A DNA stretch of 64,000 nucleotides from Sphingobacteriales bacterium 50-39 (GTDB lineage: Bacteria > Bacteroidota > Bacteroidia > Chitinophagales > Chitinophagaceae). Below, in pieces: positions 8,178 through 58,673 of this stretch. Numbering within the stretch: the first letter of the stretch is position 1; each line of letters starts with the position of its first letter. Below the pieces are notes generated by a model that saw only the letters and a program-made list of their open reading frames with translations, was not told the DNA's origin and ran no database searches. The position numbers and the translations under genes were made by a program. Location of the stretch: positions 248,001 through 312,000 of the forward strand of contig MKTZ01000015.1 of the NCBI GenBank assembly GCA_001898505.1. The letters are read 5' to 3'.

Positions 8178-11100
8178 TTAACCAATGGCTTTTCGCTTCA
8201 GGGCGACATATTCTGAAGGAGAAAGATCGAATTTTGCTTTGAACGCCCGGGTAAAATAGTTGGGGGTAGTAAATCCGACAGCATACCCTATCTCCGCGAT
8301 CTTCATATCGCCTCTTTCGAGGAGCTCTGCTGCCCTGTTTAGCCTGACGGATCGAACGAATTCCACGGGAGTCTCCCCCGTCAGGTCAACGATCTTTCGA
8401 TAGAAGGAGGTCCGGCTCATGCAAAAATGATTGGAAAGCTCCTCGACCGACAACTGAGAGCTGTCGAGTTTCGACTCTATAAACTGGATCACTTTCAACA
8501 ACAATTGGTCTTCCGCCGATGGCAGCTCCCGGGGAGGAGTTTCAATATTGACCCGTCGGGTGTATGTTTCACGCAAACGCTGGCTAAGTAAAATCAGATT
8601 TTTTATCTTGATATTCAAAACCTCGAAGCTGAACGGTTTGGTCAGGTAGTCGCTGGCGCCGGTCTCCAGCCCCGTCAGCTGATAGGCGTCGTCCGTCAGA
8701 GCCGTTAACAGGATCACCGGAATATGGCTGACCCGCCTGTCGGATTTAATTTTCCGGCTAAGTTCAATCCCGTCCATATTGGGCATGGTAATGTCGCTCA
8801 CGATAACGTCCGGATGAGTGGACAGGGCCTTTTGCCACCCCACCTTGCCATCCGGGGCCTCAATTACCTTGTAATAGGGTTGCAGGCTGCTTCGAAGGTA
8901 TTCCCGGAAGTCATCGTTGTCCTCTACCAACAGTACGGTCAGCTTTCTGAGGTCTCGCAGGTTGGCCGGCCGGCCTTCGGCAGCGCTTACAGCTTTAACA
9001 GAAGTTCTTTCACCATCTGCCTTGTTCACCGTCCCACTGCTGATATTTTCCAGCGGCAGCAGCGGCAGGCAGATCGTAAAGGTACTCCCGGCTCCCGGCT
9101 GGCTTTCGACAGCGATCGTCCCTCCGTGCAAAACCACAAACTCCCTGGTAATGGACAGACCAATCCCGGCGCCCTGGTTGGAGACATTTGCCTTGGCGCT
9201 GCCCTGGAAAAACCGGTCGAAAGCGCGCATTCTTTCATCCGCGGACATACCGACCCCCGTATCGGAAATGATGATCATCAATTCTTTCGAATCGGGGACC
9301 TCTTTTACTGTCAGCGACACGCAACCATCTTTTTCTGTAAACTTGAACGCATTTCCCAAAAGGTTGAATACAATTCGTTCGATTTTATCCTTGTCGAATG
9401 CCGTATAAAAACTGTCTATGGTAGTGGAGAAGGAGAAACGGATCTGCTTTCGGTCGGCCATGTCGCTGAACGAGTCGGAAGCATCCTTTAAGAACGAAAT
9501 AATATCGCCTTCGCTCAAATTAAGTTTCAGTTCGTGATCCTCCAGCTTCCTGAAATCAAGCAACTGATTTACGAGGTTGAGCAACCGTCTCGCATTTCGC
9601 TTCACCATGGCAATATGCCTTTGTTTGTCGGGATTACCCTCCTTTTCCTGTAACTGCTCCAGGGGCCCGGTGATCAGGGAGATAGGCGTGCGAAACTCGT
9701 GGCTCAAATTGGTCAAAAATTTTATCTTCAGTTGATCGAACTCATGCAAACGCTCGGCCTCCAGCCTTTCCTGTTCCAGGAGCTGTTTCATACGCATACG
9801 CTCCTGCTCCAAGGCGTATTTGATCTTGAACTTCCGGATGCCACGATGCCGGATGCCCCAGACGATCAGTATGGCAACCAAAATATAAAGTGCGTAGGCA
9901 TATCCTGTAAGCCAGAAGGGCGGCTTGACATAGATATGGATCGAGGTATCCGTCGCGCTCCATACGCCGTCATTATTACTTGCCTTTACATGAAAAGTAT
10001 AGTCACCCGGGTCAAGGTTCGTGTAATAGGCCGTATTCATCGTCCCCACGTAGATCCAGTCTTTGTCAAAACCTTCCAGCTTATAGGCATACTGGTTTTG
10101 CTTCGGCAGCGTATAATTCAGGGCAACAAAGCTCAATGCCAAATTCTGCTTGTAGGCAAGACTGATCTTAGTGGCTATGGAAATATGTTCCTGAATGGCA
10201 GATTCCTTACCCGGAGCTACGGACTTATTTCCAATCCGAAGGTCTGTCAGCATCACAGAAGGTACATTGCTGTTAGCCGTCAACTTCGTCGGATCTATGT
10301 AATTGAATCCTTGCAGGCTACCGAAAAAAAGCTCGCCGTTTGACGCCTTGAACCCGGCCCCGTGTACGAAATTATCGATAGGGATGCCGTTATAGTGCGT
10401 GAAATTGCGGAAGTGCCTGGTAGCCACTTCGAACGTGCTGACCCCTGTGTTTGTGCTTATCCACAGTTTTCCTTTATTATCTTCCACCAGTTGGTAGATG
10501 GTGGTATTTTGTAAACCATCTTTTTCCGAGAAGTTAGTGAACTTTTCTGTCCTCTCATCAAACACACTCAAACCTCCGCCATAGGTGCCTATCCACATCA
10601 GACCGCGGCTGTCGCGGAGCAGCGCGTGTATCTTATCGCTGGGCAGCGGGCTGTTGCTTTGATTGTGCACGGTAAATTTTCCCGTATGCGGGTCATAGAC
10701 AGTCAATCCTCCGCCGTGCGATCCGATCCAGATATTTCCCCGGCCGTCCTCTTCTATGGCCCTGATATATCCATTTATCGGCAGCAGGATATCGTCCGGT
10801 CCCGTCGGATTTGGCGTATAGCGAACGAGGCCATTATTATTTTTTAAAGCAATGACCCCGTCCCCGTTAGTGCCAAACCAGATCTGCCCCTTGCTGTCTT
10901 CCGTTATACAATAGATGTCTCCGCTGTTGAGGTCCTCGGCGCCATGGGCGGCTGACAGGTGTTTCGCTTTTCCTGTCACGGGATCCAGGACGATGGCTCC
11001 GTTCCCGGCTGTTCCGATATACAATGTGCCATTGTGCAATCTTCTCAAAGACAGGACGGACAAGTCATTTGATCTCAGCCCATCCAGCTGCACCTCACAA

Positions 11101-12296: not shown

Positions 12297-12304
12297 TACC
12301 AACA

Positions 12305-12327: not shown

Positions 12328-12381
12328 CAAGATACTTCTTTTACGGCAAATCCGAACAAATTACCTGCATTCATATTGAAC

Positions 12382-15426: not shown

Positions 15427-15452
15427 CCCAAAATTTTTTATATAGCAACATC

Positions 15453-17540
15453 TTACTCGCTCCATACCGCCACTCCGCTGGGCTGCAGCACGGACTCTCC
15501 GACAAGGACCTTGCCTGTAACAGGAACCTTCAAAGCATATTCCTCCGAAGAATAATTCACGGCGATATAAAAACCGTCCCGCCAGTAAACATACACGCCC
15601 GGCGGATAATCTTCGGTGTCGGCGCCGGCCTCGTGATATGCATTGCGCAACAGCTCCTTTTCGAGCTTGAACTCAGTGGTAGCCGCCCCGATATAGGTCA
15701 CGGTACCCTTGCCGATGGCACGCCGAACGACCGCAGCAGCGCCCTTATAAAACTGGTCATTATAGACAGCCAGGACATCCGTCCCCTTGTCCGGCGTCAG
15801 CAGATCGGCCCAGCTATTCCAATTATAATCGACGGAGTCCATACGGATATCCCCATGGTTGTTACCCGGCATCATGTCGGTGGCCGTTATATGAGCGCCG
15901 ATGAGCCCGGACAATGCCGAAGCCCACTCTCCTTCCCGGAAATGTCCCTGACTGTCCTTCGTGGCAGTTCGACAGGTAATGATCAAATGTCCTCCGCCCG
16001 CGACATACGCTTTCCACTTCCTGACCAATGCAGTGTCCGCCATTTCATAGGCCGGAACAATGACGACCTTATACGCCGACAGATCGGTCCCGGGCCCGAC
16101 GACATCGACAGGTGCCCCAAGCGCTTTGGCTGCCTCGAGAAATCTGACGGGATAGTTCCATGCATCCCATAGATAGGTCTGCTTTTGCCGGTCGATTGAC
16201 CAGAAATTCTCCAGGTTCCAAAGGATGGCAGTCTTGCGGGCCGCCAATTTTTCGGGCATCCTCGTCCCAGGCTGGTACAGCTTCCGCAACTCCCTGATCT
16301 CCTTCATGAATTGCATATACTCCTCGCCTCCCCGCGAAGGCGTAATGCCATCGGTCCGTATCACACCTGCATGGTATTGCTCCGCGCTGTAAAGTATCTG
16401 GCGATAGCGGTACGAACAGGCTATTTTCCCGCCCGCCCCGAATGCATGGTACAACCACATCCGCACCGTGCCCGGCAGCAACAGCGGATTGAAACTACCC
16501 CAGTTCACCGGGCCTGGCTGCATTTCCATCACCCCCGACAGCCCACCCGTCGCCTTGAAATATTCCGCGGCAAAAAGGATCGTTCTTTCATCTCCCAGCC
16601 GGAATCCCAGTTTTCCCCGATTGTCAGCCCCGCCATTGGGATAGGCAGTATAGGCAGCAAAATCAAGCTTTTTCGTCCGCCGTGGATCGGAGCCGGTGGC
16701 AACGGCGGTATAATTGGTGGTAATAAACTGGCCCGGAGAAATATATTTCCGCAATATAACAGCCTGACTATCCAAAAACGCAGCCTGCGCATCGGCCGAA
16801 TATCGCTTAAGATCCAACAGCGCGTGCGGATTGTTACCCCACCACCCTACCAGCATTGTATTGGGGATGATCACCTGCCCGAACCTGTCGTACCATTGAC
16901 TCCAGAAGGCAGTACCCCATGCGGCATTCAGCGCATCGATGGTCCGGTATTTTTTCTTCAGCCAATCCCTGAAAGCCTGTTCTGAGGAGGGACTGTAGTC
17001 GGGCTTTGCATCGGGTTCATTGTCGAGCTGCCATCCTATCACATTTGGATTGCGCCCATACCGCCGTCCCATCTCCGTTATGATCCTGCCCGCAAACCAT
17101 CGGTATTTGGAGTTGACGATGGAGCCCAGTCCACGGGTGCCGTGCTCACCCCTTATGTAGTGCCCATCCATCACAAAGGTCTCGGGGTATTTTTCCCGCA
17201 TCCACGCCGGCGTAGTGGCCGAAGGAGTGCATAGAAGGACCTTCACCTTGTATTTTGCACAAAGTCCTACGACCTTATCCAGCCAGGCAAAGTCAAACTT
17301 CCCCTCCTGCGGCTCCATTTTGAACCAGGCGAACTCGGCCAGGTGCACAAACTCATATCCCATGCGGCTGATGTTGGCAATGTCCCGCTCCCACTGGCTT
17401 TCGCTCCAATGTTCGGGATAATAATAGATCCCTGTCGTGACGAGGTCCTTTTCGGGAAAAAACCGGGTGGCATCCTGTGATCGTGCGGCAAATGCCGCCA
17501 GTATGATCAATTGAAAAAATAGAATGATACGTTTGTTCAT
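15453..17540 (-). CDS. GH42 beta-galactosidase, exported
   Basis: 695 residues from the ATG at 17540, which opens a signal peptide (MNKRIILFFQLIILAAF, then ARSQ). Longer in-frame starts would bury this signal. GH42 features: YYPEHWSESQWERDI near residue 41, acid/base Glu175 in GWQLDNEPD, nucleophile Glu339 in GVMEMQPGPVNW, a central trimerisation-type domain (about 405-630; YKVVIVPAYEMAD, GGGHLIITCRT) and a small C-terminal beta domain. The reaction is removal of terminal beta-galactose; some relatives act on alpha-L-arabinopyranose. The signal peptide places it in the periplasm, unlike many cytoplasmic GH42 enzymes. It follows the GH5 gene by 4 nt and precedes GH39/GH43 by 26 nt in the same operon. 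It could take galactose off xyloglucan side chains alongside the GH2 enzyme. Confidence 0.93.
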   Translation of the reverse strand: MNKRIILFFQLIILAAFAARSQDATRFFPEKDLVTTGIYYYPEHWSESQWERDIANISRMGYEFVHLAEFAWFKMEPQEGKFDFAWLDKVVGLCAKYKVKVLLCTPSATTPAWMREKYPETFVMDGHYIRGEHGTRGLGSIVNSKYRWFAGRIITEMGRRYGRNPNVIGWQLDNEPDAKPDYSPSSEQAFRDWLKKKYRTIDALNAAWGTAFWSQWYDRFGQVIIPNTMLVGWWGNNPHALLDLKRYSADAQAAFLDSQAVILRKYISPGQFITTNYTAVATGSDPRRTKKLDFAAYTAYPNGGADNRGKLGFRLGDERTILFAAEYFKATGGLSGVMEMQPGPVNWGSFNPLLLPGTVRMWLYHAFGAGGKIACSYRYRQILYSAEQYHAGVIRTDGITPSRGGEEYMQFMKEIRELRKLYQPGTRMPEKLAARKTAILWNLENFWSIDRQKQTYLWDAWNYPVRFLEAAKALGAPVDVVGPGTDLSAYKVVIVPAYEMADTALVRKWKAYVAGGGHLIITCRTATKDSQGHFREGEWASALSGLIGAHITATDMMPGNNHGDIRMDSVDYNWNSWADLLTPDKGTDVLAVYNDQFYKGAAAVVRRAIGKGTVTYIGAATTEFKLEKELLRNAYHEAGADTEDYPPGVYVYWRDGFYIAVNYSSEEYALKVPVTGKVLVGESVLQPSGVAVWSE

Positions 17541-37531: not shown

Positions 37532-37587
37532 GTACACCGGCAATGGAATTACCGCTAAATATACAAATATTTGCTTATTCGTTACCC

Positions 37588-38415
37588 CTAGTGTGAATTA
37601 TAATAATCCAGGCTCACATAGTTGTAGATACACCAGTTGTTGGCATCTTTTAATGCAATGACTTCCAGCCCATCGGCCGTCAGCGACTTTATGGCCATTT
37701 TTGCATACCAGTTGGCGATGTTGGGACCCTGGTTCGGGTCATGGATCAATTGCGCTCCGATGGTAGCCAGCTGGTTGGTGCTCGTATACAGCATAAAATG
37801 ACCGCTGGCCTGCCCCAGCGATGGCAGCATTTTATTATCGGAACTGAAATTTGCATTGCCGATCAGATCAAAGGTCATCGTTCCATAAGTACTCGGATCA
37901 CCTGCCGGGCAGATCCAGGAAGCCCAGCCGGCGTCCCATTCCCAACCTGTCCCGCCGAAGTAGATAGGTCCGTTGAATAGCTTACTTGCGCCGGATGATG
38001 TTACATCCAGCACCCAGGTTTTCGATTTTCCATATCCGCCCGTAAGGTTAATCCAGGCAGGAGTGCTTACGGCCGCCTGATCCAGCGTATTTATCGTCAC
38101 GATAGTCGTATCTGCCTGGACAAGCCCGCCGGCGCTTTCCACCCCGTAAACAAATTTATATTGTCCGGGGAAAGGAACGTTGATGGTGTCCTTTACCCGC
38201 TGTGATTGACCGAAAGGCGTAACCCATACGGGGGTCATGCCGGGTGTCGAGCTTGTCAAAACAATATTATTGGGATTTGTCGACGAAGGCGCAATATTGA
38301 AGGACAACTTACTCTTATCCGCCAGCGGTCCTAATTCATATTTCTGCTTGGTGCAGGCAGAAAACACCAATGCTGATCCGATGAACGCAAAGGTCTTTTT
38401 TATCATATTTCTCAT
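37588..38415 (-). CDS. Putative surface glycan-binding lipoprotein with PKD-like domain
   Basis: 275 residues from the ATG at 38415; the ATG at 38406 would shorten it by three. Lipobox Cys21 (LVFSAC, then TKQ). Residues about 35-112 resemble a PKD/Ig-like fold (NNIVLTSSTPGMTPVWV, PFPGQYKFVYGVES). The C-terminal half begins with an aromatic-rich segment (GGTGWEWDAGWASW, about residues 153-166), reminiscent of the Trp-rich start of the C-terminal domain in the other glycan-binding protein here, though the two are otherwise different. It follows SusD2 by 29 nt, the usual place for SusE/SGBP-type proteins, so surface glycan capture is the likely role. No enzyme motif is seen. I cannot name a more specific family. 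Confidence 0.82.
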   Translation of the reverse strand: MRNMIKKTFAFIGSALVFSACTKQKYELGPLADKSKLSFNIAPSSTNPNNIVLTSSTPGMTPVWVTPFGQSQRVKDTINVPFPGQYKFVYGVESAGGLVQADTTIVTINTLDQAAVSTPAWINLTGGYGKSKTWVLDVTSSGASKLFNGPIYFGGTGWEWDAGWASWICPAGDPSTYGTMTFDLIGNANFSSDNKMLPSLGQASGHFMLYTSTNQLATIGAQLIHDPNQGPNIANWYAKMAIKSLTADGLEVIALKDANNWCIYNYVSLDYYNSH

Positions 38416-38444
38416 ATGTGTATTATTTTAATTATTAAATGATC

Positions 38445-40046
38445 TTACCAGCCGGGATTTTGTTTCAGTACCCCTGACGACAACGTGATCTGATCGGAAG
38501 GTATTTGTTGAAATCCCCGCGTAGCGGTAATATTTGCCTGCAACGTTGCAGCGCTTGGTTGTGTTCCCGTGCCGTCGTTGATCAGGGACAAAGTCGTATT
38601 AGCCGCGATGGTCGATGCGGCCGTGGCAAGGCCCTGGCGTAACAGATCCCAGTACCGGATACCTTCTCCCACGAATTCAAGCCGGCGCTCTGCAAGGATG
38701 TCGTCTTTCGTGACGGCCGTAACAGCAGCAGCGGAAGGGATTGCCCGCTGATGTACCTGGTTGAAATAGCTTACAGCGTTCGGGCTTCCCAATTCAGCCG
38801 CCATCAATAACACATCCGAATAGCGAATAGCGAAGTAATCCTGGCTTTGGCCAACCAGATAGTTGCTGACGGGAAGAGGATTGTTATTGGAGTCGCAGAT
38901 CGGGCTGTATTTCTTCATATAATATCCGGTGTACTCACGATTGGCTGCCGCCTTGCCGAAAGCAAGATTTTCCTTGGCAATATCCGTGATGGAAGCAAAA
39001 TACCGGCTGTCTTTTGACGGATCGAACAGCGCCACCAGCTTGGGGTCCACCGTACAGCCACCCCATCCAAACCCATAGGGATAAAGGCTTTGTTCACGCA
39101 TACCCGTCATTACCATCCAGTTATTGCCCGTAATGTTTCCATTGTAGTCCCCTGTGGAAGAATATTTGATGGAAAAAACCACCTCTTTGTTGGCTTCTCC
39201 CGCATAGGTGACTTTTTTTGCCAATGACGCTGCAGGCCAAAGGGTAGTGAAGTCGCTGACCAGTCCGTGTCCGCTGTGCGCGATCACGTCCTCTACCGCA
39301 GCCAATGCGGTGGCAGCCGATTCGTTGCCGATGGTAGACTTGCCATAATACCCTGAATAAAACAGATAAACGCGGGCAAGCATGGATTCCGCAGCCCACT
39401 TCGTCACCCTCCCGTTGGGTACGCTGGTATACGTTGCAGAAGGAAGGCTATCCGCTGCATAGCGCAGATCGCTCATGATCTGAGCATAGATGGAATCAGG
39501 ACCTGACTGAGGCACATTTGCCAAAGTAGGGGTCGTCAGCAGCGGCACTTTTTCAAACAGCCGGGCCAGATCGAAATAACAGTAAGCACGAATAAATTTG
39601 GTCTCCGCCGTGTATTGATTTTTCAACGTGGTGCTGTCTCCCCAAGCGATCTGGTTCATGTGCTGAAGGAGAACATTACAACGATAGATGGCCTGGTAAT
39701 AATTTTTCCATCCGCCGCTGTGCATAGACACGTCAGACGGGGAAATGGTCTTATTGAATTCATCCATCATTTCCCAGCCATATCCGTCTGAAGCGCCGGT
39801 GGCTCCAAAACAATTGTCTGAAAAAACCTCCATTATGGGCGGGATGGCTTCACCATTATAGATCAGATCCAGTCCGTTGTAACATCCCACCAGGGCGGTG
39901 AAGGCATCGGAAGGTGTCTTATAAAAGGAGACGTCCGTCTGCGAGGCGGCGGTGAGCTCCGTGGTCAGGAATTTCTTACATGAATTGAGCGAAAGCATTG
40001 CCAGCGCTGCCACGAGGCCGATGGTACTATATTTAATTTTTTTCAT
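38445..40046 (-). CDS. SusD-like outer-membrane oligosaccharide-binding lipoprotein (pair 2)
   Basis: 533 residues from the ATG at 40046, lipobox Cys23 (LSLNSC, then KKFL). SusD/RagB motifs: FLTTELTAASQTDVSFYKTPSDAF at the N-terminus, the TPR core AETKFIRAYCYFDLARLFEKVPLL and TKWAAESMLARVYLFYSGYYG, and the C-terminal SQDYFAIRYSDVLLMAAELG, FNQVHQRA, LAERRLEFVGEGIRYWDLLRQG. It is the lid and binding subunit for SusC2, which lies 16 nt upstream. The second importer pair differs clearly from pair 1 in sequence, suggesting that it takes a different oligosaccharide or chain length. Confidence 0.96.
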   Translation of the reverse strand: MKKIKYSTIGLVAALAMLSLNSCKKFLTTELTAASQTDVSFYKTPSDAFTALVGCYNGLDLIYNGEAIPPIMEVFSDNCFGATGASDGYGWEMMDEFNKTISPSDVSMHSGGWKNYYQAIYRCNVLLQHMNQIAWGDSTTLKNQYTAETKFIRAYCYFDLARLFEKVPLLTTPTLANVPQSGPDSIYAQIMSDLRYAADSLPSATYTSVPNGRVTKWAAESMLARVYLFYSGYYGKSTIGNESAATALAAVEDVIAHSGHGLVSDFTTLWPAASLAKKVTYAGEANKEVVFSIKYSSTGDYNGNITGNNWMVMTGMREQSLYPYGFGWGGCTVDPKLVALFDPSKDSRYFASITDIAKENLAFGKAAANREYTGYYMKKYSPICDSNNNPLPVSNYLVGQSQDYFAIRYSDVLLMAAELGSPNAVSYFNQVHQRAIPSAAAVTAVTKDDILAERRLEFVGEGIRYWDLLRQGLATAASTIAANTTLSLINDGTGTQPSAATLQANITATRGFQQIPSDQITLSSGVLKQNPGW

Positions 40047-40062
40047 GTCTTTTTTTTATCAA

Positions 40063-43000
40063 TTAGAAAATGATGCTTACCCCCACCATCGTCTTTCTTG
40101 GGCGGGGATAATATCCCAGGTCAACGCCTTGTCCGAAGTAATAAGCTCCGCTGGCATCCGAAGAGGTATATCCTACTTCGGGATCCATTCCATTGTACTT
40201 GGTGAAAGTAACCAGGTTCTCAGCTGCCACGTACAAACGGAATTGCGTCAGATATTTCCACTTCAACAGTTTCGCGAAATCGTATGCCAGGGTAATGTTC
40301 GATACTCTCAAATAGCTACCGTCATGAATAAAGAGATCGGAAAACTCGGCCCAGTTGATGTTGTTTTGCGTCACACGGGGCATTGAATTGGATGTACCTT
40401 CTCCGTGCCAGCGACTCAAAACAGCAGTCGTCCAGTTCCCATAAGCGCCCAGATCCCTATAGGACTGGACCAGTTTATTTCCGGCAACGCCACTTGTCGT
40501 GATGGAAAGATCGAAGTTTTTATAGTTGCCGGAAAACCTCAAACCAAAAACATGATGCGGGTTCGGATCGCCGATATTCGTCTTATCGGCGGCGGTAATA
40601 GCTCCGTCGCCATTCAAATCCACATATCTTACGTCACCCGGATGAGCTGAGGGTTGAAGGGCCCCATTCTTACCCTTCCATGACTGTACGTCCGCCTCAG
40701 TCTGGAAGATGCCGGCCGTCTTATATCCCCAGAAATACCCGACGGGGTTTCCGGAAGATGCCCGGAAAAATTCCGGGGCATTTACAAACAGGCTGTTCGA
40801 ACCGCCATGAATGATCCCATCGGCCGTCGGAATATTATTCACCATATTTTTATTATAGGCGTAGGAACCCGATATGGAGTAGGCGAAATCTTTTCCGATC
40901 CTGTCGTTGTACGCCAGCTGGAGCTCTATTCCCTTATTGGTGACATTGCCCCCGTTGATATATGGGTTTGTCGAAACACCTGCGGTGGCCAGCAACGGCG
41001 CTGCAACCAGCCAGTCCTTTGTCAATTTATTATATACGTCGATACTTGCGCTTAGTTTGTTGTCCAGCAATTGGGCGTCGATCCCTATATTGGTTTGTCG
41101 GGAAGTTTCCCATTTTGTCTTTTGAACGCCGATGGTGGAAGGATAAGCCCCATTGGTCAGGCTCGTATTGGTGTTGCCAAAATTGTATTGTGCATTTGAC
41201 AAGCTGATCAGGGACAGGTAATTGAAAGCAGTAATGCCATCGTTACCGTTGGATCCCCAGCTTGCTCTTAATTTCAGGAAGTTCAGCCAGGTCCTGGCCG
41301 GCGCCATGAAAGATTCACTGCTGACCACCCAACCTACTGACAGGGATGGGAAGTATCCCCATTGATGGTCCTTGGCAAACATCGTAGAACCATCTGCACG
41401 GAAGATAGCGGAAGCGAGGTATTTGTCCTGGTAAGAATAGTTGATCCTGCCGAAAAACGAAGCCTGCGCATAGACGGCATTTGCGTTCCCGTACAGCGAC
41501 ATGGAATGCGTTACCGTTTGCCTGTTGGCGGTGGTAGTATCGGCGCTCATCGATATAGACGTAAGATTTGAAGTACTGAGGTATCCCCGGTCGAAACTGG
41601 CGAATAAGGTAGGTCCGGTATTATTTCCACCTACAAACGTTCCCTGGTACTTGCGAATGGCGCTACCCGCGAGAAAATCAAATTTGTGCTCTTTGATCCT
41701 GAAAAGATAGTTCACGGTATTGTCCCAATTCACAGTGTATGACTGGGAACTGCCCTGACCGATGTTCTCGTTCCTGTTGTAAGCATATATCGACAAATTA
41801 TCATACACGGGCGTATAACTATGATTAGCCGAAGATGAATAATTCAACCCAAAAGAAGTTCTGATCCTCAAATCCTTGATCGGCTGCAGTTCCGCATATA
41901 CATCTCCAAACAATTTTTGCGTCTTCGTATCATTTTGATTATTGTAGACCGCCAATGCATAAGGGTTCGCTTCGGCAGTGTTCCATGGGCCACCATTGTA
42001 TACGGTAGATTTGAGGCTGCTCAGATATTTACCGGCAGAGTCGTACATCGCCAGCAACGGGCTGGTGGTAAATGCACCGCGCAGGGTGTTGCCATATATT
42101 CCTCCATCCGAGATCCCGTATTGATTGATAAAGGAGAAGGTCAGGTGCTCGCCTATTTTCAGCGCCCCGTCATACATTTTGCGTTCGGTGTTGCTACGGA
42201 AATTGTAGCGCTCATAATTCGAAAGCTTCTGTCCGCCGACGATACCGCCCTGTTGTGTATAGGACATTCCCAATGAATAGGACGAAACATCTGATCCGCC
42301 ACTGGCGGATAAGTTATAATTCTGCACCGGCACGTTGGAGGCGAACATCTGGTCCAGCCAGTTGGTTCCTTTTCCCAACGCATTGATTTGCGCTTGCGTA
42401 AAAAGGGGAGCAAGCCCTGAGTTGAGGGCGGCCTCATTCTGGATGACGGCGTACTGGTGTGCATCCAGCAGATTTGTTTTCGGAGGGGCGTTTTGATATC
42501 CGTAGTAGCCGTCGAACGATATTTGCCCGCCTGTCTTTCCGCCCATCTTCCCGCCTTTGGTCGTTATCAGCACAACGCCATTGGCTCCATTGATACCGTA
42601 GATGGCGCTCGATGCGGCATCTTTCAATACATCTACGGAGGCTATGTCCGATGGATTCAAAAAAGTAATATCGTTGGTAATCACACCATCTACCACGTAC
42701 AAAGGATTCGCGTTCCCAATGGTACCGACTCCCCGGATATTCACTTTAAAGCCGCCGCCGGGCTGTCCCGAGGTGGACGTAATGTTGACCCCTGCGGCCT
42801 GTCCCTGCAATGCCTGTAATGCATTGGTGGTGTTGAGTTTGGCAAGGTCTTCGCCTTTGACGTGGGCAGTAGCGCCCGTCACTGCTTTCGACTTTTGCAC
42901 GCCATAACCCACTACCACAATATCGTCCAGCTTTGCGATACTTTGATCGAGCTGAATGGTCAGGTCGTTTGTTTCCGCCTGTATTTTGACTGTTTTCAAA

Positions 43001-43266
43001 CCATGGCCTACCGAACTGATCTCAAGGACCTCGCCGGTGTTCACCACAATACTGAAAACTCCATCGTTATTGGAAATAACGGCGTTTCGCGAGCCTTTTA
43101 CGGCGATCGAGGCGCCTGCAACCGGCTGCCCGGTACCAGTCTCCGTGACCCTGCCCGTTATTTTTCGTCCAGTAGTCTGGGCAAAATCGTGGGCGCTCAA
43201 AAGCAGCAGGGTCAGCAGCATCAAGATTGGCTTTGACCACTTCCGTTTGATTTTCTTTTCTAGCAT
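40063..43266 (-). CDS. SusC-like TonB-dependent oligosaccharide importer (pair 2)
   Basis: 1067 residues from the ATG at 43266 (MLEKKIKRKW); a TTG two codons upstream is unlikely. Signal peptide with a basic start and hydrophobic ILMLLTLLLLS, cleavage near FAQ. CarboxypepD_reg-like domain (ITGRVTETGTGQPVAGASIAV to SVGHGLKTV), SusC motif DDIVVVGYGVQKSKAVTGA, plug (LYVVDGVITND, IASVDVLKDAASSAIYGINGANGVV), then the barrel, ending in MVGVSIIF. It lies 30 nt after GH31 and 16 nt before susD2. The order GH31-SusC-SusD links the importer to alpha-xyloside processing and thus to xyloglucan oligosaccharides. Confidence 0.97.
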   Translation of the reverse strand: MLEKKIKRKWSKPILMLLTLLLLSAHDFAQTTGRKITGRVTETGTGQPVAGASIAVKGSRNAVISNNDGVFSIVVNTGEVLEISSVGHGLKTVKIQAETNDLTIQLDQSIAKLDDIVVVGYGVQKSKAVTGATAHVKGEDLAKLNTTNALQALQGQAAGVNITSTSGQPGGGFKVNIRGVGTIGNANPLYVVDGVITNDITFLNPSDIASVDVLKDAASSAIYGINGANGVVLITTKGGKMGGKTGGQISFDGYYGYQNAPPKTNLLDAHQYAVIQNEAALNSGLAPLFTQAQINALGKGTNWLDQMFASNVPVQNYNLSASGGSDVSSYSLGMSYTQQGGIVGGQKLSNYERYNFRSNTERKMYDGALKIGEHLTFSFINQYGISDGGIYGNTLRGAFTTSPLLAMYDSAGKYLSSLKSTVYNGGPWNTAEANPYALAVYNNQNDTKTQKLFGDVYAELQPIKDLRIRTSFGLNYSSSANHSYTPVYDNLSIYAYNRNENIGQGSSQSYTVNWDNTVNYLFRIKEHKFDFLAGSAIRKYQGTFVGGNNTGPTLFASFDRGYLSTSNLTSISMSADTTTANRQTVTHSMSLYGNANAVYAQASFFGRINYSYQDKYLASAIFRADGSTMFAKDHQWGYFPSLSVGWVVSSESFMAPARTWLNFLKLRASWGSNGNDGITAFNYLSLISLSNAQYNFGNTNTSLTNGAYPSTIGVQKTKWETSRQTNIGIDAQLLDNKLSASIDVYNKLTKDWLVAAPLLATAGVSTNPYINGGNVTNKGIELQLAYNDRIGKDFAYSISGSYAYNKNMVNNIPTADGIIHGGSNSLFVNAPEFFRASSGNPVGYFWGYKTAGIFQTEADVQSWKGKNGALQPSAHPGDVRYVDLNGDGAITAADKTNIGDPNPHHVFGLRFSGNYKNFDLSITTSGVAGNKLVQSYRDLGAYGNWTTAVLSRWHGEGTSNSMPRVTQNNINWAEFSDLFIHDGSYLRVSNITLAYDFAKLLKWKYLTQFRLYVAAENLVTFTKYNGMDPEVGYTSSDASGAYYFGQGVDLGYYPRPRKTMVGVSIIF

Positions 43267-43296
43267 AAACAAGCAATTTTTGGTTAATAAAAAAAA

Positions 43297-46131
43297 CTAC
43301 TTAAGATCAATCCTCTTTTCATGGCCGGTATAAGTAACAACAGCGGTTGGTTTGCTTTTTCCGCCGATGCATTCGATCCTGAAAGTCCTTTGGAGAAGAG
43401 CGCCTGCGAATGACCCATTTCGCTCGCCAATGGTAAGCATCCGGGCTGCCTCGTTATAATGTAAGGCAATAGTTGAAAAGCTGCCTTTCTCATAATTGTA
43501 GTTGGTGCCTTCATCCTCGTACAGGGTGAAATCAGCGTCGCGACCGGTGTATACATACAATGTGATCGTGTCGGCAGGCCGCTCGCCTGTGTACTGCAGA
43601 TCAGGCCCCATCGGAAGGATCGTTCCCTCTTTCACATAGACAGGCATACGCTGGTAGGGCGCCTCCGCGGTGATCCTTTGTCCCCCATCCACGATCTTGC
43701 CTGAGTAGAGATCGTACCAGCCCTGGCCTGCAGGAAGATAGACTTCCCGCTGTTGCGCCTTATATGTACAGACAGGGTTCACCAGCAGCGACGGGCCCAG
43801 CATAAATTCATCGGCAATATCCCTGACGGCCGTGTCATTCCCGAAGTCCATCACCAGTCCGCGCATCATCGTATAGTCATCATGCCATACCATACCCGCA
43901 AGAGAATAGAGATAAGGCAGCAGCCGGTAACGCAGCTTGTCGTAATACAAGATGCTCTGGTAGGCGGGATGATCCGGCGGCGCAATATTAAATATCTCGC
44001 GGTAAGGGAACTGGCCATGGGCGCGGAACAAAGGAACGAATGCGCCAAACTGATACCAGCGCGTATTCAGCTCTCTCCATTCCTCCAGGCTTTCCGCATT
44101 GGGTTTTTCAAACTTCTCCGGCACCACAAAGCCGCCGATGTCCATCGTCCAGTAAGGCAGGCCGGACATGGAGAAATTGACCCCCGCGGCGATCTGGTTT
44201 TTCATATCCCTCCAGGTGGAGCCGATGTCACCGCTCCATATGGCGGCGGCATATCGTTGAGAGCCCGCAAATCCTGATCGGGTGAGGAGGAACACTCTTC
44301 TGTCCGGATCATCCGCACGTTGCCCTTCATAGATACCCTTTGCATTTTGCAACGGATAGGCATTGAGGTATTCGGCAGCGCTTCCCAACGCGGTCGGCGT
44401 CATCTGAAGCTTTCTCTTTTCAGGACTGACGTTGGAAAGTATATCGGGTTCGCTGGCATCCATCCACCAGGCGTCGATGCCCTTGCTGTAAATTTTTTTG
44501 TGGATCAGATCCCAGAACCCTTTCCGGGCATCCGCGTTGAACGCATCGTAAAAGGTAGAAACATAGCCTTTCCCGATCCAGTCCCTTTGCCTGTCAGCGA
44601 TATTCCTTTTATAAAGCCAGCCCTTCTTATCAAATTCGTCGTAAGAAGATATGCCTTCGTAAAACTTCGGCCACACCGAGATCATAAGGTGCGTATGATA
44701 CTTTTTGTGCAGGACGTCGATCATGCTGTCCGGGCTGGGGAAACGGGTCTCATCGAATTCCTGGCTTCCCCACGCTGCTTCTTTCCAATAACTCCAGTCC
44801 AGAACGATATTGTCGATGGGGATCTCTCTTTTCCGGAACTCATCTATCGTGTTAATTATCTCATCCTGTGTTTTGTATCGTTCCCTGCTTTGCCAAAAAC
44901 CCAATGCCCATTTGGGAACGATAGGCGCCTTGCCGGTGAGCTCCCGGTAACCTGCGATGACCCCATCCATGTTGCGGCCATAAATAAAATAATAATCTAT
45001 CTGCTGACCTGCCTCCGAAGAAAAACCAAAACTGTTTTGCTCTGCGGGGGTCAGCGGTTCCTGCCATTTCAGGGAAAGATAGGACTCACCCCCTTCGGGG
45101 ATCCATTCGATCCTGACAGGGACTTTTGCACCTTTTTCTAATTGAATAGGGACCATCGCCGGCGCCGGGTTCCACGCCTTGCGCCAGTGATCCAGCACGA
45201 GCTTACCATCGAGCCACACTTTTAGCGAGCCGCCAAAGGTGAACCGGAATTGATGAACACCGGAGAGATAACTGGCAACGCTGCCTTCCCAGGTCACCAT
45301 CCCTGTCGCAGGTGTAAAGCTCGGGGGAAGCTGGATCTTTGAATCGCCCAGGAATGGCATATCGATGTTGCCCTCGGCTCTTTCGGTGACAACTTCCTGC
45401 GATTTCCGCTTGTCGTTGGCATAGGAAGCCGTAAGCCATCCCTGGTCTCCTGTCTTCGAAAAAAGCTGTAATGCAGACAGATCGTGCAGCGGCCTGGTAT
45501 CCCCCGCCGCCGTAAGCGAATAATTATCCCAGAGGACACCGTAATTCCGGCAGGAGATCAGGAAGGGAATGCCTACTTCCGTATTGTTTTGAAAAAGTGT
45601 GACCTGCTGACCCTTGTAATTATATATCCCATCCTGGTGCTGGCCTAATCCATACCATGCATCTCCGGGGGTAGTTTGAAAGGTTTGAGCCAGCTTATAA
45701 CAGCGTTTGCCATCGACCACCGAAGCCTGGAAACTTCTTCCGAGCGGCCGCTTTTCCTCAAGGATCTTTCCGCCCCTGGGGTCCCGGAAAGAAACAGCGC
45801 CTGTTTTCAGGTCGACGATCGCGGTGAGCTTTTTCGTTCTTAAGGTCAGGCTTTCTTTCGACGGGATGACCTCCCAGAAAACATCGGTCCTTTTCTTATC
45901 TAAGGTGACCAGGCTTTGAAGAGGCACGATCTCTTTTGCGGGGGCCGCCGTCACCCTTATAATATTGTCTGCGATTACCTCCAGCCTGACGGCATTGGAT
46001 GTACCTGTAACCAGGCTGTCGGTGAATATTATCAGGCCGTCGGGGATCGTTTTGTAGGAAGGAGGAGCCGCCAACAGGACATTTACAATAGCAACGGTCA
46101 AAAGGCTGGATAACACTAAGCGTAACTTCAT
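43297..46131 (-). CDS. GH31 alpha-xylosidase with PA14 insert
   Basis: 944 residues from the ATG at 46131, signal peptide MKLRLVLSSLLTVAIVN to about residue 22. The N-terminal beta-sandwich (LTAIVDLKTGAVSF) is interrupted by a PA14-like insert at about residues 230-372 (GVHQFRFTFGGSLKVWLDGKLVLDHW). The barrel has nucleophile Asp558 in WWMDASEPD and acid/base Asp635 in IWSGDIGSTW. Two C-terminal beta domains follow. PA14-bearing GH31 enzymes of this size include the xyloglucan-specific alpha-xylosidase CjXyl31A of Cellvibrio japonicus and the corresponding Bacteroides ovatus enzyme, so release of alpha-1,6-xylose from the non-reducing end of xyloglucan oligosaccharides is likely. It heads the module 2 operon and is preceded by a 22-bp direct repeat. 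Alpha-glucosidase activity is less likely but not excluded. Confidence 0.95.
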   Translation of the reverse strand: MKLRLVLSSLLTVAIVNVLLAAPPSYKTIPDGLIIFTDSLVTGTSNAVRLEVIADNIIRVTAAPAKEIVPLQSLVTLDKKRTDVFWEVIPSKESLTLRTKKLTAIVDLKTGAVSFRDPRGGKILEEKRPLGRSFQASVVDGKRCYKLAQTFQTTPGDAWYGLGQHQDGIYNYKGQQVTLFQNNTEVGIPFLISCRNYGVLWDNYSLTAAGDTRPLHDLSALQLFSKTGDQGWLTASYANDKRKSQEVVTERAEGNIDMPFLGDSKIQLPPSFTPATGMVTWEGSVASYLSGVHQFRFTFGGSLKVWLDGKLVLDHWRKAWNPAPAMVPIQLEKGAKVPVRIEWIPEGGESYLSLKWQEPLTPAEQNSFGFSSEAGQQIDYYFIYGRNMDGVIAGYRELTGKAPIVPKWALGFWQSRERYKTQDEIINTIDEFRKREIPIDNIVLDWSYWKEAAWGSQEFDETRFPSPDSMIDVLHKKYHTHLMISVWPKFYEGISSYDEFDKKGWLYKRNIADRQRDWIGKGYVSTFYDAFNADARKGFWDLIHKKIYSKGIDAWWMDASEPDILSNVSPEKRKLQMTPTALGSAAEYLNAYPLQNAKGIYEGQRADDPDRRVFLLTRSGFAGSQRYAAAIWSGDIGSTWRDMKNQIAAGVNFSMSGLPYWTMDIGGFVVPEKFEKPNAESLEEWRELNTRWYQFGAFVPLFRAHGQFPYREIFNIAPPDHPAYQSILYYDKLRYRLLPYLYSLAGMVWHDDYTMMRGLVMDFGNDTAVRDIADEFMLGPSLLVNPVCTYKAQQREVYLPAGQGWYDLYSGKIVDGGQRITAEAPYQRMPVYVKEGTILPMGPDLQYTGERPADTITLYVYTGRDADFTLYEDEGTNYNYEKGSFSTIALHYNEAARMLTIGERNGSFAGALLQRTFRIECIGGKSKPTAVVTYTGHEKRIDLK

Positions 46132-46175: not shown

Positions 46176-46201
46176 TGAACATCTGAGATAAGGGCCTCAA
46201 A

Positions 46202-46232
46202 TGTTGCAAACTATAGTATGAATTGTTGCAAA
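46202..46232 (-). promoter_or_regulatory. 22-bp-period direct repeat upstream of the GH31 operon (candidate HTCS3 site)
   Basis: TGTTGCAAA occurs at 46202-46210 and again at 46224-46232, exactly 22 bp apart. The site lies about 70-100 bp upstream of the GH31 ATG and 11 bp from the 3' end of the HTCS3 gene. The period matches that of the two module 1 elements but the sequence is different, as expected if HTCS3 reads this site and another HTCS reads the others. AraC-type domains binding as dimers on direct repeats of about two turns are established for this regulator class. Confidence 0.55.
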
Positions 46233-46242
46233 AAGGTGATTT

Positions 46243-49200
46243 TCAAATCATTTTCCCGTCATCCTTTTTGTCCGCTACGTATTGCGAAGGCGTAACCTTG
46301 AATTCCTCCTTAAAGAATTTTGTGAAATGGCGGGGATTATTGAACCCTACTTCATAAGCGATCTCGGCCACTGTTTTCCCGCTTTTTTCCAGCAATTGGG
46401 CGGCTCTTTTCAGCCGGATGGAACGTATAAATTCGATAGGCGTTTTGCCCGTGAGAGACAGGATCTTCCGGTAAAGCGTCACCCGGTTCATATGCATGTC
46501 CCGGCTAAGGTCCTCTACGGAAAATTCGGGATTGTCGATATGATCCTCAACATGTTTCAATGCCTCCTGCAGGAATTTCTCGTCGACGGAGGTAATGGTA
46601 ACCTCCGCGGGATTGACGGCTATCTGTTTGTGGAATCTCTTCTGCAACAGCTTCTGCTGGGCCAGCAGGTTCCTGATCCGCGAAGCCAGTATTTCGAAGG
46701 TGAAGGGTTTCGTAATATAATCGTTCACGCCCGCCCGCAGACCTTCCAGCTGCTTTTCCTCGCTTCCCATGGCTGTCAGCAGGATCACCGGGATGTGGGC
46801 GGTAACAGTTTCGGTTTTGATCTTTCTCGCAAGTTCGACTCCATCCATCAATGGCATCATGATATCGCTGACTACGAGGTCCGGATTCACGTGCTTTATT
46901 TTCTCCCAGCCCTCGGAACCATTCACGGCCTCTTCGACACGATACTGCCCTTTCAGGTTGTCTTTCAAATAGAACCGCAGGTCTTCATTATCTTCAATTA
47001 TCATGATGGTTTTCTTGCCGGTGCCCTTCCGGTCGCCGTCTAATATTACCTTTTCTTCCTCTTCCGGATCGACGGGGTGGACGGAGGTGCGTACGGAAGG
47101 TTCATATATCTTTTTCGCGGGCAGATGGACCGTAAAGCAGGCGCCTTTCCCGGCCTCGCTCTGTACGGTAATGACCCCGCCATGCAACTTTACAAATTCC
47201 TTCGTAATGGCAAGACCGATGCCGGTGCCCTGGTTCACCATGTCTTCCGGCACATCCGTTTGAAAAAATCTTTCGAAGATCTTCTCATGCTTATCCGCCG
47301 GGATGCCAATCCCGGTATCTTTTACTTCGATGGCAAGCGATCCGTCATCCTGCCCATTTAATGAGGGCTTATATATAAGGCTGACGCCAATGATACCGTT
47401 GTCCTCTGTATATTTGAAAGCATTGGAGATCAGGTTGAACAGGATCTTTTCGATCTTATCCCTGTCGAAATACATTTCGAGGCTGTCGATATTCGATGAG
47501 AACGAGAATTGAATACGCTTCTTTTCCGCAATATCTGTAAATGAAAGGCTTATATCTTTGCTGAACCCGACGATGTCACCAATGGAGGGATGAAGCTTTA
47601 CTTCCTGCACCTCCATCTTTCTGAAGTCGAGCAGTTGATTTACCAGGTTCAAAAGCCGTTTTGCATTGCGTTGAACGAGATGCAATTGCTTTTTCTGCTC
47701 TTCGTTGGCGGCATGATCGATGATCTTGTTCAACGGCGCCATGATCAGGGTCAATGGCGTACGGAATTCATGGCTCACATTTGTAAAGAACTTTGTCTTT
47801 AGCTGTTCCAATGCGTGGGCCCTTTCCGCCTCTCTTCGCTGCTGCCGTAGCTCGAATCGCATATGTATCCTGTCTAATACAATACGCCGTACAACCACGA
47901 ATAGCCCTGCCGCGATCAAAATATAGATAATATAGGCGACAGGCGTTCGCCAGAATGGCGGCGCGATATTGACCTGCAATTCCTTTACATCGCTCCACAG
48001 ACCATCCGTATTCAGGACTTTTACTTTAAAAACATAATGCCCGGGGCCAAGATTGGTATAGGTGGCCTTTCTCTGGTTTCCATCGGCATACAACCACTCC
48101 GGGTTGAAACCCTCCATCATGTACGCATACTTATCCCTGGCGCCGCGCGTATAATCCGGCGATGTAAATTCAATGGAGAAAACATTCTCTTTATACTTTA
48201 GATCGATGCTTTGGACCCGCGACAAGGATCGATCCAACAGGATACGGTTATTTACCACTTCACCCGGCTCGACATCCCTGTTCAATAGCTGGAGTCCGGC
48301 GAAAACTATTTTAGGCCGGTGAGCAGGCGCCTTGATGATGGAAGGCTGGATAATATTAAAACCGGAAGGGCCCCCGAAGATCAATTCCCCTTCCCGTGTT
48401 TTGAGCGCCGCATTATCATTGAATTCACGGTTTTGCAGGTTATTGATCTCGTCATAATTGATAATAGAAACAAATCCACTGTCTTTTTGCCGGGGAATAG
48501 CGTTACACAATCCGTTGGGTGTAGATATCCAAAGCGTCTGGCGATCGTCTTCCAGGATGTTCAATATGATATTATCGGGGAGTCCGTCCGATGTGGTAAA
48601 GACCTTAAACGTTCGTGTTTGCTCGTCGAACAGGTTCAGACCATCCCTGGTCCCTACCCAAATCCTCCCCCTGCTGTCTTCCAGAAAGCAAATGATGCTA
48701 TTACTGCTCAAGCTGTGCTTGCCGCCGGTGGTCTTAAAAAAAACAGGCGAATCTTTCTTTTCCAGAACGACGATCCCCGATACCGTACCTATCCAGACAT
48801 TGCCTTTTCTATCCTGCAAGAAGGCCGTAATAATGTCGAAGAGTGATGGCCCCTGCGGGCTCTCTTTATATTGGTGATGGATGAACCGGTGAGTTCTCCT
48901 GTCCAGGATATCGATACCACTGCCCAGAGTGCCGATCCACAATCGCTGATCCCGGTCTTCAAAGATCTCCCATACATTGTCGTTTGCCAGGCTGGACGAG
49001 TCATTGTCATCATGTCTGTAGTGCGTAAACTTTTTTCCGTCATAACTATCGAGCCCCCCGAGAAAGGTCCCCACCCAAAGCACCCCTTCATGATCGATCC
49101 ATAAACTGACAATTACATTGCTGCCGGGACTGTTCGTATTGCTCGGATCGTGCAGGTATTGTTGAAATAAATTCTTTTTCCTGTCGAAGTAGATCAACCC

Positions 49201-50352
49201 GCCGCCGTTGGTCCCGATCCAGATGTTGCCGGATCTGTCCTCCACAAAACGGTTTACATCATCGTATTGAAGGCTCCTGCTGTTGGATGCCTGATGATGA
49301 TAATAGGGGAACCGGATTATGTTGGCGTTATAATAATTGATGCCCTGCTTATATGTACCCAGCCAGATGATCCCGTCATCATCTTTATACAGCGCGGTAA
49401 CACTGTTATCGCTAAGGCTTTGAGGATCTTTTGGGTCGTTCGACAAATAGCTGGTCCTCAGATCGTTCTTTTTATCGATGAGCGTAACGCCGCCGTGATC
49501 CGTTGCGACCCAGATCAACCCGTTGTTATCCTGTACTATTTTGTAAACCAGGTTGGAGCTCATCCTGGATGGCCACGTGCTTTCATTAAATTGCCTGACC
49601 GAGTTGTCCGTCCGGTGAAAAAGCAAAGCCCCATAGATGTAACCCCATAACCAGATGTCTCCGTCACTGTCTATAAAAAGGTTGTGGGTGGTATTTTTCT
49701 TATACAGTCCCTGCACGGCAGTGCTGGAAAAGATAATCCTGCTTTCTTTTATATCATACTCCTCCAACAGTCCATTTTGATAGACCATCCATAGCTTCCC
49801 GTCCTTCGTTTCTGCGACAGACGTGATCTTTTGGGACAAATAGGACCGGACATGCTGCCCGAATGGTCCTGCCCTCTTCTCAGCGCTTGAATAGAGATAC
49901 AGGCCGAGGCTGTCATAAAGGAACCAGTACCTGCCGTTGTTCCCCTTTACGACACCATTGACAGTTCCCGAAGGCAAACCAATACCGTGTAAGAAGCCGT
50001 TGGCGTCCGCATCGAATTTTTCAGTCTGTGGATTATAGATACATGGACCTCCCCGGGTCTTTACCCACATCTTTCCGTCCGGCAATTCATACAGGGACAC
50101 AATGTCATTGTCGTACAAAGAAAGGCTGTCATTATATTTTTTATGGAATACCCTAAAGGAATGGCCGTCATACCGGTCGAGTCCCGATAGAGTGCCAAAC
50201 CACAAAAAACCATCGCTATCCTTTAATATATCATTGACCTGGTTATGGGAAAGGCCGGAAAAAATATCGAGCCTGGAAAAATTATACCGCTCGCTTTGAG
50301 AAAAAACGGGGAGCGAAAGGAATAAAAAAACAACCCAGGCAAAAAAACGCAT
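46243..50352 (-). CDS. Hybrid two-component system regulator (HTCS3)
   Basis: 1369 residues from the ATG at 50352; a GTG immediately before it is in frame. Signal peptide (MRFFAWVVFLFLSLPVF, cleavage near FSQ), Reg_prop sensor (residues 22-670), Y_Y_Y domain (about 720-795), membrane helix (about 805-822), HisKA with His861 (VSHEFRTP), ATPase domain (NAFKYTED, DTGIGIP, GTGIGLAI), receiver with Asp1163 (VSDIMMPLMDG), and AraC helix-turn-helix (MNRVTLYRKI, VAEIAYEVGFNNPRHFTKFFKE). It is more like HTCS2 than HTCS1 across the C-terminal half. It lies between the GH3-CE1 gene (63 nt) and the GH31 operon (111 nt) and has its own -7 box. It probably activates the GH31-SusC2-SusD2 operon through the repeat at 46202-46232. 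Confidence 0.95.
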   Translation of the reverse strand: MRFFAWVVFLFLSLPVFSQSERYNFSRLDIFSGLSHNQVNDILKDSDGFLWFGTLSGLDRYDGHSFRVFHKKYNDSLSLYDNDIVSLYELPDGKMWVKTRGGPCIYNPQTEKFDADANGFLHGIGLPSGTVNGVVKGNNGRYWFLYDSLGLYLYSSAEKRAGPFGQHVRSYLSQKITSVAETKDGKLWMVYQNGLLEEYDIKESRIIFSSTAVQGLYKKNTTHNLFIDSDGDIWLWGYIYGALLFHRTDNSVRQFNESTWPSRMSSNLVYKIVQDNNGLIWVATDHGGVTLIDKKNDLRTSYLSNDPKDPQSLSDNSVTALYKDDDGIIWLGTYKQGINYYNANIIRFPYYHHQASNSRSLQYDDVNRFVEDRSGNIWIGTNGGGLIYFDRKKNLFQQYLHDPSNTNSPGSNVIVSLWIDHEGVLWVGTFLGGLDSYDGKKFTHYRHDDNDSSSLANDNVWEIFEDRDQRLWIGTLGSGIDILDRRTHRFIHHQYKESPQGPSLFDIITAFLQDRKGNVWIGTVSGIVVLEKKDSPVFFKTTGGKHSLSSNSIICFLEDSRGRIWVGTRDGLNLFDEQTRTFKVFTTSDGLPDNIILNILEDDRQTLWISTPNGLCNAIPRQKDSGFVSIINYDEINNLQNREFNDNAALKTREGELIFGGPSGFNIIQPSIIKAPAHRPKIVFAGLQLLNRDVEPGEVVNNRILLDRSLSRVQSIDLKYKENVFSIEFTSPDYTRGARDKYAYMMEGFNPEWLYADGNQRKATYTNLGPGHYVFKVKVLNTDGLWSDVKELQVNIAPPFWRTPVAYIIYILIAAGLFVVVRRIVLDRIHMRFELRQQRREAERAHALEQLKTKFFTNVSHEFRTPLTLIMAPLNKIIDHAANEEQKKQLHLVQRNAKRLLNLVNQLLDFRKMEVQEVKLHPSIGDIVGFSKDISLSFTDIAEKKRIQFSFSSNIDSLEMYFDRDKIEKILFNLISNAFKYTEDNGIIGVSLIYKPSLNGQDDGSLAIEVKDTGIGIPADKHEKIFERFFQTDVPEDMVNQGTGIGLAITKEFVKLHGGVITVQSEAGKGACFTVHLPAKKIYEPSVRTSVHPVDPEEEEKVILDGDRKGTGKKTIMIIEDNEDLRFYLKDNLKGQYRVEEAVNGSEGWEKIKHVNPDLVVSDIMMPLMDGVELARKIKTETVTAHIPVILLTAMGSEEKQLEGLRAGVNDYITKPFTFEILASRIRNLLAQQKLLQKRFHKQIAVNPAEVTITSVDEKFLQEALKHVEDHIDNPEFSVEDLSRDMHMNRVTLYRKILSLTGKTPIEFIRSIRLKRAAQLLEKSGKTVAEIAYEVGFNNPRHFTKFFKEEFKVTPSQYVADKKDDGKMI

Positions 50353-50389
50353 CACAATATGTTTAACATACAGGGCAGTCAGTTAAACT

Positions 50390-50397
50390 CAAATATA
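50390..50397 (-). promoter_or_regulatory. -7 promoter box for HTCS3
   Basis: TATATTTG on the minus strand is a perfect TAnnTTTG match, 37 nt upstream of the HTCS3 ATG, giving a leader of about 33 nt. No TTTG lies at the usual -33 distance (one lies 11 nt upstream). It suggests that the sensor can be made independently of the enzyme genes before it. Confidence 0.5.
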
Positions 50398-50415: not shown

Positions 50416-53397
<2,982 letters not shown>

Positions 53398-53431
53398 TTA
53401 ATATAATCCTGTCATCGGCTGTAAGACGCTC

Positions 53432-53500
53432 CAAAATTAGATCGCCACATCCGAAGGAAGGGTAGGTTAATTTGTCAATCATGGTATTGGAATGTTAACC
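53432..53500 (-). promoter_or_regulatory. Promoter and large dyad upstream of GH3-CE1
   Basis: TAATTTTG (53439-53432) on the minus strand fits the -7 consensus and lies 49 nt before the ATG. Upstream of it, nested inverted repeats share one centre (53482.5): GGTTAA (53465-53470) with TTAACC (53495-53500), and CAAT (53476-53479) with ATTG (53486-53489). The 36-bp symmetry fits an operator for a dimeric regulator; it is too AT-rich for a strong terminator. No 22-bp direct repeat like those of the other operons is seen here. Confidence 0.4.
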
Positions 53501-53548
53501 GATGGCTATAATTCTCGCTTTTTACGGGCAACATTCGTAAACCTTCCC

Positions 53549-56137: not shown

Positions 56138-56141
56138 CTGT

Positions 56142-58673: not shown

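Follow-up and report, generated by a model that had tools for sequence, protein, structure and literature searches.

The DNA analysed here raises a question of regulatory wiring: three HTCS genes are distributed among the enzyme genes of a polysaccharide locus, and they may act in series, each regulator switching on the operon that carries the next, or side by side. The window, i.e., the whole stretch of 64,000 nucleotides, corresponds to C15:248001-312000 of a 7.9-Mb genome. The original prediction divided it into three enzyme modules, each closed by an HTCS gene lying directly before the promoter of the next, and proposed a timed cascade in which HTCS3 would switch on an operon including HTCS2 and HTCS2, in turn, module 1, whose last gene is HTCS1. 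Comparison with related genomes leads us to favour, with a probability of about 0.74, an arrangement of two HTCS regulons that work in parallel, each with its own operators, and lie side by side in tandem.

Gene families were assigned by Pfam scans of the predicted proteins. Open reading frames and Pfam place on the minus strand every gene of the locus from HTCS1 through the multi-enzyme gene, and gene order, strand and families are those of the earlier description: HTCS1, GH39-GH43, GH42, GH5, GH97, GH5, SGBP, SusD1, SusC1, GH2, GH5-RicinB and HTCS2, followed by a lipoprotein-like gene, SusD2, SusC2, GH31-PA14, HTCS3, GH3-CE1, GH3, GH9 and the multi-enzyme. The features on which the argument turns are, in window coordinates:

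8178-12305, minus strand: HTCS1, xylan-type by context.
12382-33231, minus strand: module 1, i.e., GH5-RicinB, GH2, SusC1, SusD1, SGBP, GH5, GH97, GH5, GH42 and GH39-GH43 (Pfam).
28846-28923, minus strand: site C, candidate HTCS2-type operator (28890-28923) and promoter before SusC1 (pattern and matrix).
33317-33393, minus strand: site B, candidate HTCS2-type operator (33360-33393) and promoter before GH5-RicinB and GH2.
33428-37543, minus strand: HTCS2, head of module 1 (Pfam; orthologs in G035, G382 and Flavitalea sp. BT771).
37556-37564, minus strand: HTCS2 promoter-like block GTATATTTA, 24 nt before the ATG.
37588-46131, minus strand: predicted HTCS3-driven unit of GH31, SusC2, SusD2 and lipoprotein genes (Pfam).
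46199-46232, minus strand: site A, predicted HTCS3 operator TTTGCAACAATT-N10-TTTGCAACATTT with a 22-bp period.
46243-50355, minus strand: HTCS3, head of the GH31-SusC2-SusD2-lipoprotein unit (Pfam; orthologs head xyloglucan-type loci).
50390-50397, minus strand: HTCS3 promoter-like element TATATTTG.
50416-53394, minus strand: GH3-CE1 fusion, between site D (upstream) and HTCS3 (downstream) (Pfam).
53460-53536, minus strand: site D, a third candidate operator of HTCS2 type with its promoter, in front of GH3-CE1 (operator at 53503-53536, with weaker half-sites).

Modules 1 and 2 have the predicted composition of a xyloglucan utilization locus (SusC/SusD, an SGBP, a GH5 of endo-xyloglucanase type and a GH31 of alpha-xylosidase type). 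The polysaccharide is assigned because the SGBP of module 1 carries SGBP_B_XBD, a xyloglucan-binding domain in Pfam, one GH5 of this module has as nearest solved relatives cel5D of 5oyc (E 2.3e-113), the exo-xyloglucanase 4w8a (E 6.2e-66) and the GH5 cellulase 3zmr (E 4.6e-61), and the best solved match of the GH31 is BoGH31A (E 4.8e-303). The sole solved match of the SGBP is a chain named sugar-binding protein (3orj), and the lipoprotein gene of the SusC2 unit gave no Pfam match. The genes listed for module 3 in the original prediction (multi-enzyme, GH9, GH3 and GH3-CE1) are present, but the module extends past the window edge and continues with CE1, GH43-CBM6, an esterase, a GH51-like gene, SusD3 and SusC3 up to ~77.2 kb in window-continued coordinates, with a GH67 on the opposite strand; what the window contains is thus the tail of a longer locus, apparently of xylan type. 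The multi-enzyme (58690-64779), in which Pfam recognises GH43, GH95 and SASA domains, is very large, with ~2,000 residues and its start outside the window, and the scan covered the part inside it. The GH3-CE1 fusion has 992 aa; its best-matching counterparts in the loci of HTCS3 orthologs measure 723-765 aa in 11 of 12 cases, the twelfth being cut by the end of the stretch. Upstream of SusC3, at ~16230-17000 of stretch L001 (77.2-78.0 kb, window-continued), the reverse strand resembles by eye the beginning of a gene of LacI type, seemingly no more than a remnant, and AATCGGTT-type sequences were noticed by eye both in this LacI-like stretch and before SusD3.

All three regulators show in Pfam the Reg_prop, Y_Y_Y, HisKA, HATPase, receiver and AraC-type HTH domains and have, in one protein, the HTCS architecture of a periplasmic Reg_prop/Y_Y_Y sensor, a kinase, a receiver and an AraC HTH. 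Their receiver alpha3-beta4 loop reads SHIP in HTCS1, RHIP in HTCS2 and AHIP in HTCS3, so that HIP is kept and the first residue varies; AHIP is found in 23 of the 25 HTCS3 copies considered below. According to the available text of PMC11253607, an S/C-HIP motif (HIP >90%, S/C 84%), with DK as its DBD half, occupies this loop and is tied to an inhibitory contact. The first residues of HTCS2 (R) and HTCS3 (A) depart from the motif as reported.

The 22-bp direct repeat that had been noticed after HTCS3, before GH31, was confirmed. Site A is made of two 12-bp copies (46199-46210 and 46221-46232) with a spacing of 22 bp and 11 of 12 positions identical, a degree of identity reached by none of 300 shuffles of the HTCS3-GH31 gap. 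A matrix that left this genome out of its training gives the site 35.6 bits against 13.7 for the next place in 81 kb (overlapping register excluded), and in a genome-wide pattern search site A stands alone at fewer than three mismatches, with four more places at three mismatches and 3 for the reversed control. A self-repeat test at lags 21-23, applied to the flanks of 13 HTCS genes of this genome (nine others and H1-H4), detected a significant repeat at site A alone, the next lowest values being 0.06 (C4a, downstream) and ~0.1 (H4, upstream); in this test the downstream gaps of C27, C9a and H4 were too short, that of H2 was hidden by the mechanical ORF of the next gene, and the procedure is too weak for HTCS operators without the help of relatives.

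The relatives give the repeat a regulator. At a cut-off of E 1e-290 or better, HTCS3 orthologs occur in 23 of 394 genomes of the family, this one included, with 25 copies in total; 24 of these belong to relatives, and 23 are testable, as the G208 contig ends inside HTCS3. The next gene of more than 200 aa after HTCS3 lies on the same strand in 24 of 24 cases (23 relatives and this genome) and, in 22 of the 23 relatives, has as its best match either a SusC gene or one of the enzyme genes of the window locus. A TTTGCAACATTT-N10-TTTGCAACATTT repeat of at least 20 bits follows HTCS3 within 1 kb in 21 of the 23 testable relative copies; in G116 the repeat sits before GH31, past an inserted gene, and in G377, one of the 23, an HTCS3-type repeat was not found after HTCS3. 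Extra copies precede other operons in several loci (e.g., G085 and G209). Over 24 relative loci, 75 places of at least 14 bits lie on the coding strand, compared with 6 on the opposite one and 1-2 when the sequence was shuffled five times, counts that come from the relatives on which the matrix was trained, the site of this genome being the only one out of sample. The HTCS3 orthologs head xyloglucan-type loci, and the view that each HTCS gene closes a module is not supported by the comparison: in relatives HTCS3 and HTCS2 each stand first in the unit made up with the genes downstream of them.

Furthermore, covariation between recognition helix and operator ties the HTCS3 protein to its predicted site. 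In the 18 loci with N-R-V or S-R-V in the first recognition helix and a site at threshold, AAC is kept in 70 of 72 half-sites, both exceptions falling in one G253a site, and in the three D-R-S loci (G150, G253b and G365a) all but one of the 12 half-sites have the form TG(C/T)A(T/C)C; G394, G227, G377 and G390, with no site at threshold, are left out of this comparison. Both helix kinds coexist in the genomes G253 and G365, mostly beside matching half-sites (L090-L093, L108-L109 and L124-L125), and the departures from the match amount to that G253a site and one G365a half-site. The three D-R-S loci may form one clade with a common ancestor, and the change may then be a single event. A third helix, L-S-R-K, was seen in G377 (L100), where a TACCC-type 22-bp repeat, recognised by eye, follows HTCS3 in place of TGCAAC.

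HTCS2 has orthologs in G035, G382 and Flavitalea sp. BT771 (G394, added after the 394-genome tally), i.e., in four genomes with this one; the HTCS2-like match in G208 (48%) and others at or below 48% were treated as paralogs. The loci of HTCS2 share a candidate operator, TTACCCC...TATACCCC, with a 22-bp period and followed by a conserved promoter region, which occurs once in G035 (before SusC1), three times in G382 (before SusC2, SusC1 and the GH44 gene) and twice in BT771 (before GH5 and SusC1). In the window a generic repeat finder returned nothing at sites B and C; by eye they hold CCCC-type half-sites 22 bp apart, they can be aligned over ~77 bp, and a pattern written from the two matches B and C only in the genome. 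The two related repeats ascribed to module 1 are confirmed, but they do not both lie directly after HTCS2, as had been stated, since C is found ~4.5 kb past it, before SusC1.

A further site of this type, D, had been missed. The two-block matrix of operator and promoter, built on five training sites with D excluded, gives it 42.3 bits, against 23.1 for the best of 3,245,154 background positions, a background that includes overlapping loci; with the two G382 training sites one base out of register the values are 36.2 and 19.9. The operator block of D alone scores 17.2 bits, below the best background of 18.1, which comes from HTCS3 loci, and a pattern based on these two sites, C and D, matching both of them and one place elsewhere with three mismatches (reversed control 2), adds little.

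HTCS3 probably reads the repeat just downstream of its own gene, before GH31, and HTCS2 probably reads the two repeats of module 1, B and C, because in relatives the operators are conserved together with the regulator and because helix and operator change together. The idea that each HTCS reads an adjacent site is thus retained for both, with D as the addition to the list of HTCS2. The type of operator goes with the HTCS ortholog, whichever gene lies downstream: the SusC2 unit stands behind an HTCS2-type site in G382 and behind an HTCS3-type site here. Similarly, the BT771 counterpart of GH3-CE1, a GH3 gene, is part of module 1 and has no separate site, and in several HTCS3 loci the counterpart stands behind an HTCS3-type site; this enzyme, here behind a putative HTCS2-type promoter, has thus changed hands between regulators.

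In the arrangement that we favour, HTCS3 would bind the TTTGCAACATTT direct repeat with its 22-bp period just downstream of its own gene and, once bound, would activate GH31-SusC2-SusD2-lipoprotein. HTCS2 would bind the TTACCCC...TATACCCC repeat and activate GH5-GH2 and SusC1 through GH39-GH43, and would act also on GH3-CE1 from the third, weaker site D upstream. Both regulator genes would be expressed mainly from their own short promoters and, since each would have its own, the two regulons would answer related xyloglucan signals in parallel and not in series. The ligands, the activation, the borders of the transcripts and the role of HTCS1 are what we infer in this account.

Besides the candidate operators and the regulator they travel with, the comparison brings out promoter-like blocks before the regulator genes. 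The block GTATATTTA stands 24-25 nt before the HTCS2 ATG in four of four genomes, as GTATATTTG (last base G) in BT771, although no two of the genomes have the same upstream neighbour (lipoprotein, SusD, a 425-aa gene and GH44, respectively). These positions come from a string search and a four-way alignment, a three-region MAFFT alignment having misplaced G382. The TATATTTG block before HTCS3 is nearly identical here and in BT771, despite different upstream genes (GH3-CE1 vs. an esterase). TAnnTTTG is used as a promoter consensus; it occurs upstream of 8 of 25 HTCS3 genes vs. 3 of 151 operon-internal starts, and the exact form is missing in 17 of the 25 HTCS3 upstream regions and in three of the four HTCS2 promoters, being present in that of BT771. 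Sigma-70 scans were set aside as evidence.

The same tandem was found in one further genome, that of BT771, in the order HTCS3-GH31-SusC-SusD-HTCS2-GH5-SusC1, with a middle SusC/SusD pair that differs from that of the window. A terminator-like hairpin of 13 pairs lies there between the HTCS3 unit and HTCS2; neither an HTCS2-type site upstream of HTCS3 nor an HTCS gene at the end of module 1 was found in the BT771 genome. The three gaps of the window yielded no terminator-like site, including those before HTCS2 and HTCS3, which measure ~60 nt; read-through may therefore add to the expression of both regulators.

As site D lies before GH3-CE1 and HTCS3, any such coupling by read-through would be two-way. 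HTCS2 would drive GH3-CE1 and, by read-through, HTCS3, and HTCS3 would drive the SusC2 unit and, again by read-through, HTCS2, closing a mutual positive loop. Such a loop would have in its favour the HTCS2-type promoter D before GH3-CE1, the position of site A before an operon ending at HTCS2 and the two gaps in which terminator-like sites were not found, but it has to contend with the promoter-like blocks that HTCS2 and HTCS3 each possess, with the weakness of the D operator block taken alone and with BT771, where HTCS3 has no HTCS2-type site upstream, the arrangement being seen in this genome only. We regard the loop as doubtful, and equally so its possible outcome, in which two single-regulator loci, once joined, would have become cross-wired so that HTCS2 and HTCS3, as sensors of related oligosaccharides, raise each other's level and form an AND-like or bistable switch of the entire locus.

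The serial relay gives HTCS1 the last place, and this regulator seems to belong elsewhere. HTCS1 is closest to the paralog H4, with 67% identity between the sensors, and H4 has GH10, GH115 and GH67 in its vicinity, with SASA also among the Pfam families of the neighbours; the C-terminal 140 residues of the two are 52% identical, lower than the sensors, and a common operator is therefore not assumed. More distant homologs (49-55% sensor identity) lie in six loci, mostly by xylan-type genes: all six stretches contain genes that best-match the GH43-GH95-SASA multi-enzyme of the window (the matching domain not being distinguished), three of the six have CE1-like genes, and a Pfam scan that covered some of the neighbours recognised one GH10 and one GH127; the G085 locus (3.2 Mb) is not clearly xylan. 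The flanks of HTCS1 contain no significant repeat at lags 21-23. Judging from its neighbours, HTCS1 is probably a xylan-type and not a xyloglucan regulator, whose location at the far end is positional only.

The relay itself, HTCS3 driving an operon that includes HTCS2 and HTCS2 driving module 1, which ends in HTCS1, is less probable than the loop and, in our opinion, unlikely. It accommodates site A before the SusC2 operon, B and C before module 1, and the position of HTCS2 ~60 nt past the lipoprotein gene, in a gap where a search for terminator-like sites found none. Although site A does precede the operon before HTCS2, the latter has its own promoter-like block in four of four genomes, behind differing genes, and the hairpin intervenes in BT771; moreover, HTCS2 heads loci in G035 and G382, where an HTCS3 ortholog was not found at the cut-off, and site D points the opposite way. 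The middle step could be at most a supplement, and the last one is without support, given the xylan context of HTCS1 and the fact that module 1 of BT771 does not end in an HTCS gene; the timed cascade is not supported. That the repeats are sites of another regulator or leader elements, a view that could appeal to the original link having been made by position only, is very improbable, as a given type of operator accompanies a given HTCS ortholog regardless of the gene downstream, and a different recognition helix goes with a different half-site.

Xyloglucan utilization loci were reportedly described by Larsbrink in 2014. Side-chain enzymes are common to the xyloglucan loci of Bacteroides and Flavobacterium and to the locus studied here, which differs from them in having two SusC/SusD pairs and two tandem HTCS genes and in adjoining a xylan-type locus. 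The SusC/SusD pair and the GH5 of endo-xyloglucanase type are shared as well, to go by the available text on those loci (PMC11892949). In Bacteroides thetaiotaomicron, the portion of Ravcheev 2013 (PMC3878776) at our disposal describes predicted direct-repeat operators ~21 bp apart for HTCS regulators and some loci with two HTCS; the regulons are alike in the AraC-type HTCS, the direct-repeat operators and the two HTCS per locus, and the HTCS3 and HTCS2 sites, with their 22-bp period, agree with this spacing. The paired regulators BT4111/BT4124 and BT4178/BT4182 have, in the same portion, one common motif per pair, whereas here the two HTCS of one locus have different motifs and the promoters are split between them. 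The xyloglucan system of Segatella copri, as far as the accessible part of PMC11784079 describes it, resembles the present one in an HTCS beside GH2 and GH31 genes and differs in having one HTCS in the described cluster and the core SusC/SusD locus elsewhere; its HTCS is not upregulated on xyloglucan, which by analogy could be a precedent for regulators working in parallel. A tandem of this kind is not described in the open-access literature searched, so far as the texts available extend.

For two HTCS families from outside Bacteroides the comparison provides candidate operator sequences, and the joint change of helix and operator makes the DNA-recognition code of HTCS regulators directly testable. 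For this bacterium and its relatives, it would mean that a single polysaccharide locus can be shared out among two sensors, and that enzyme units, such as the SusC2 unit in G382 and here, may change hands between regulators.
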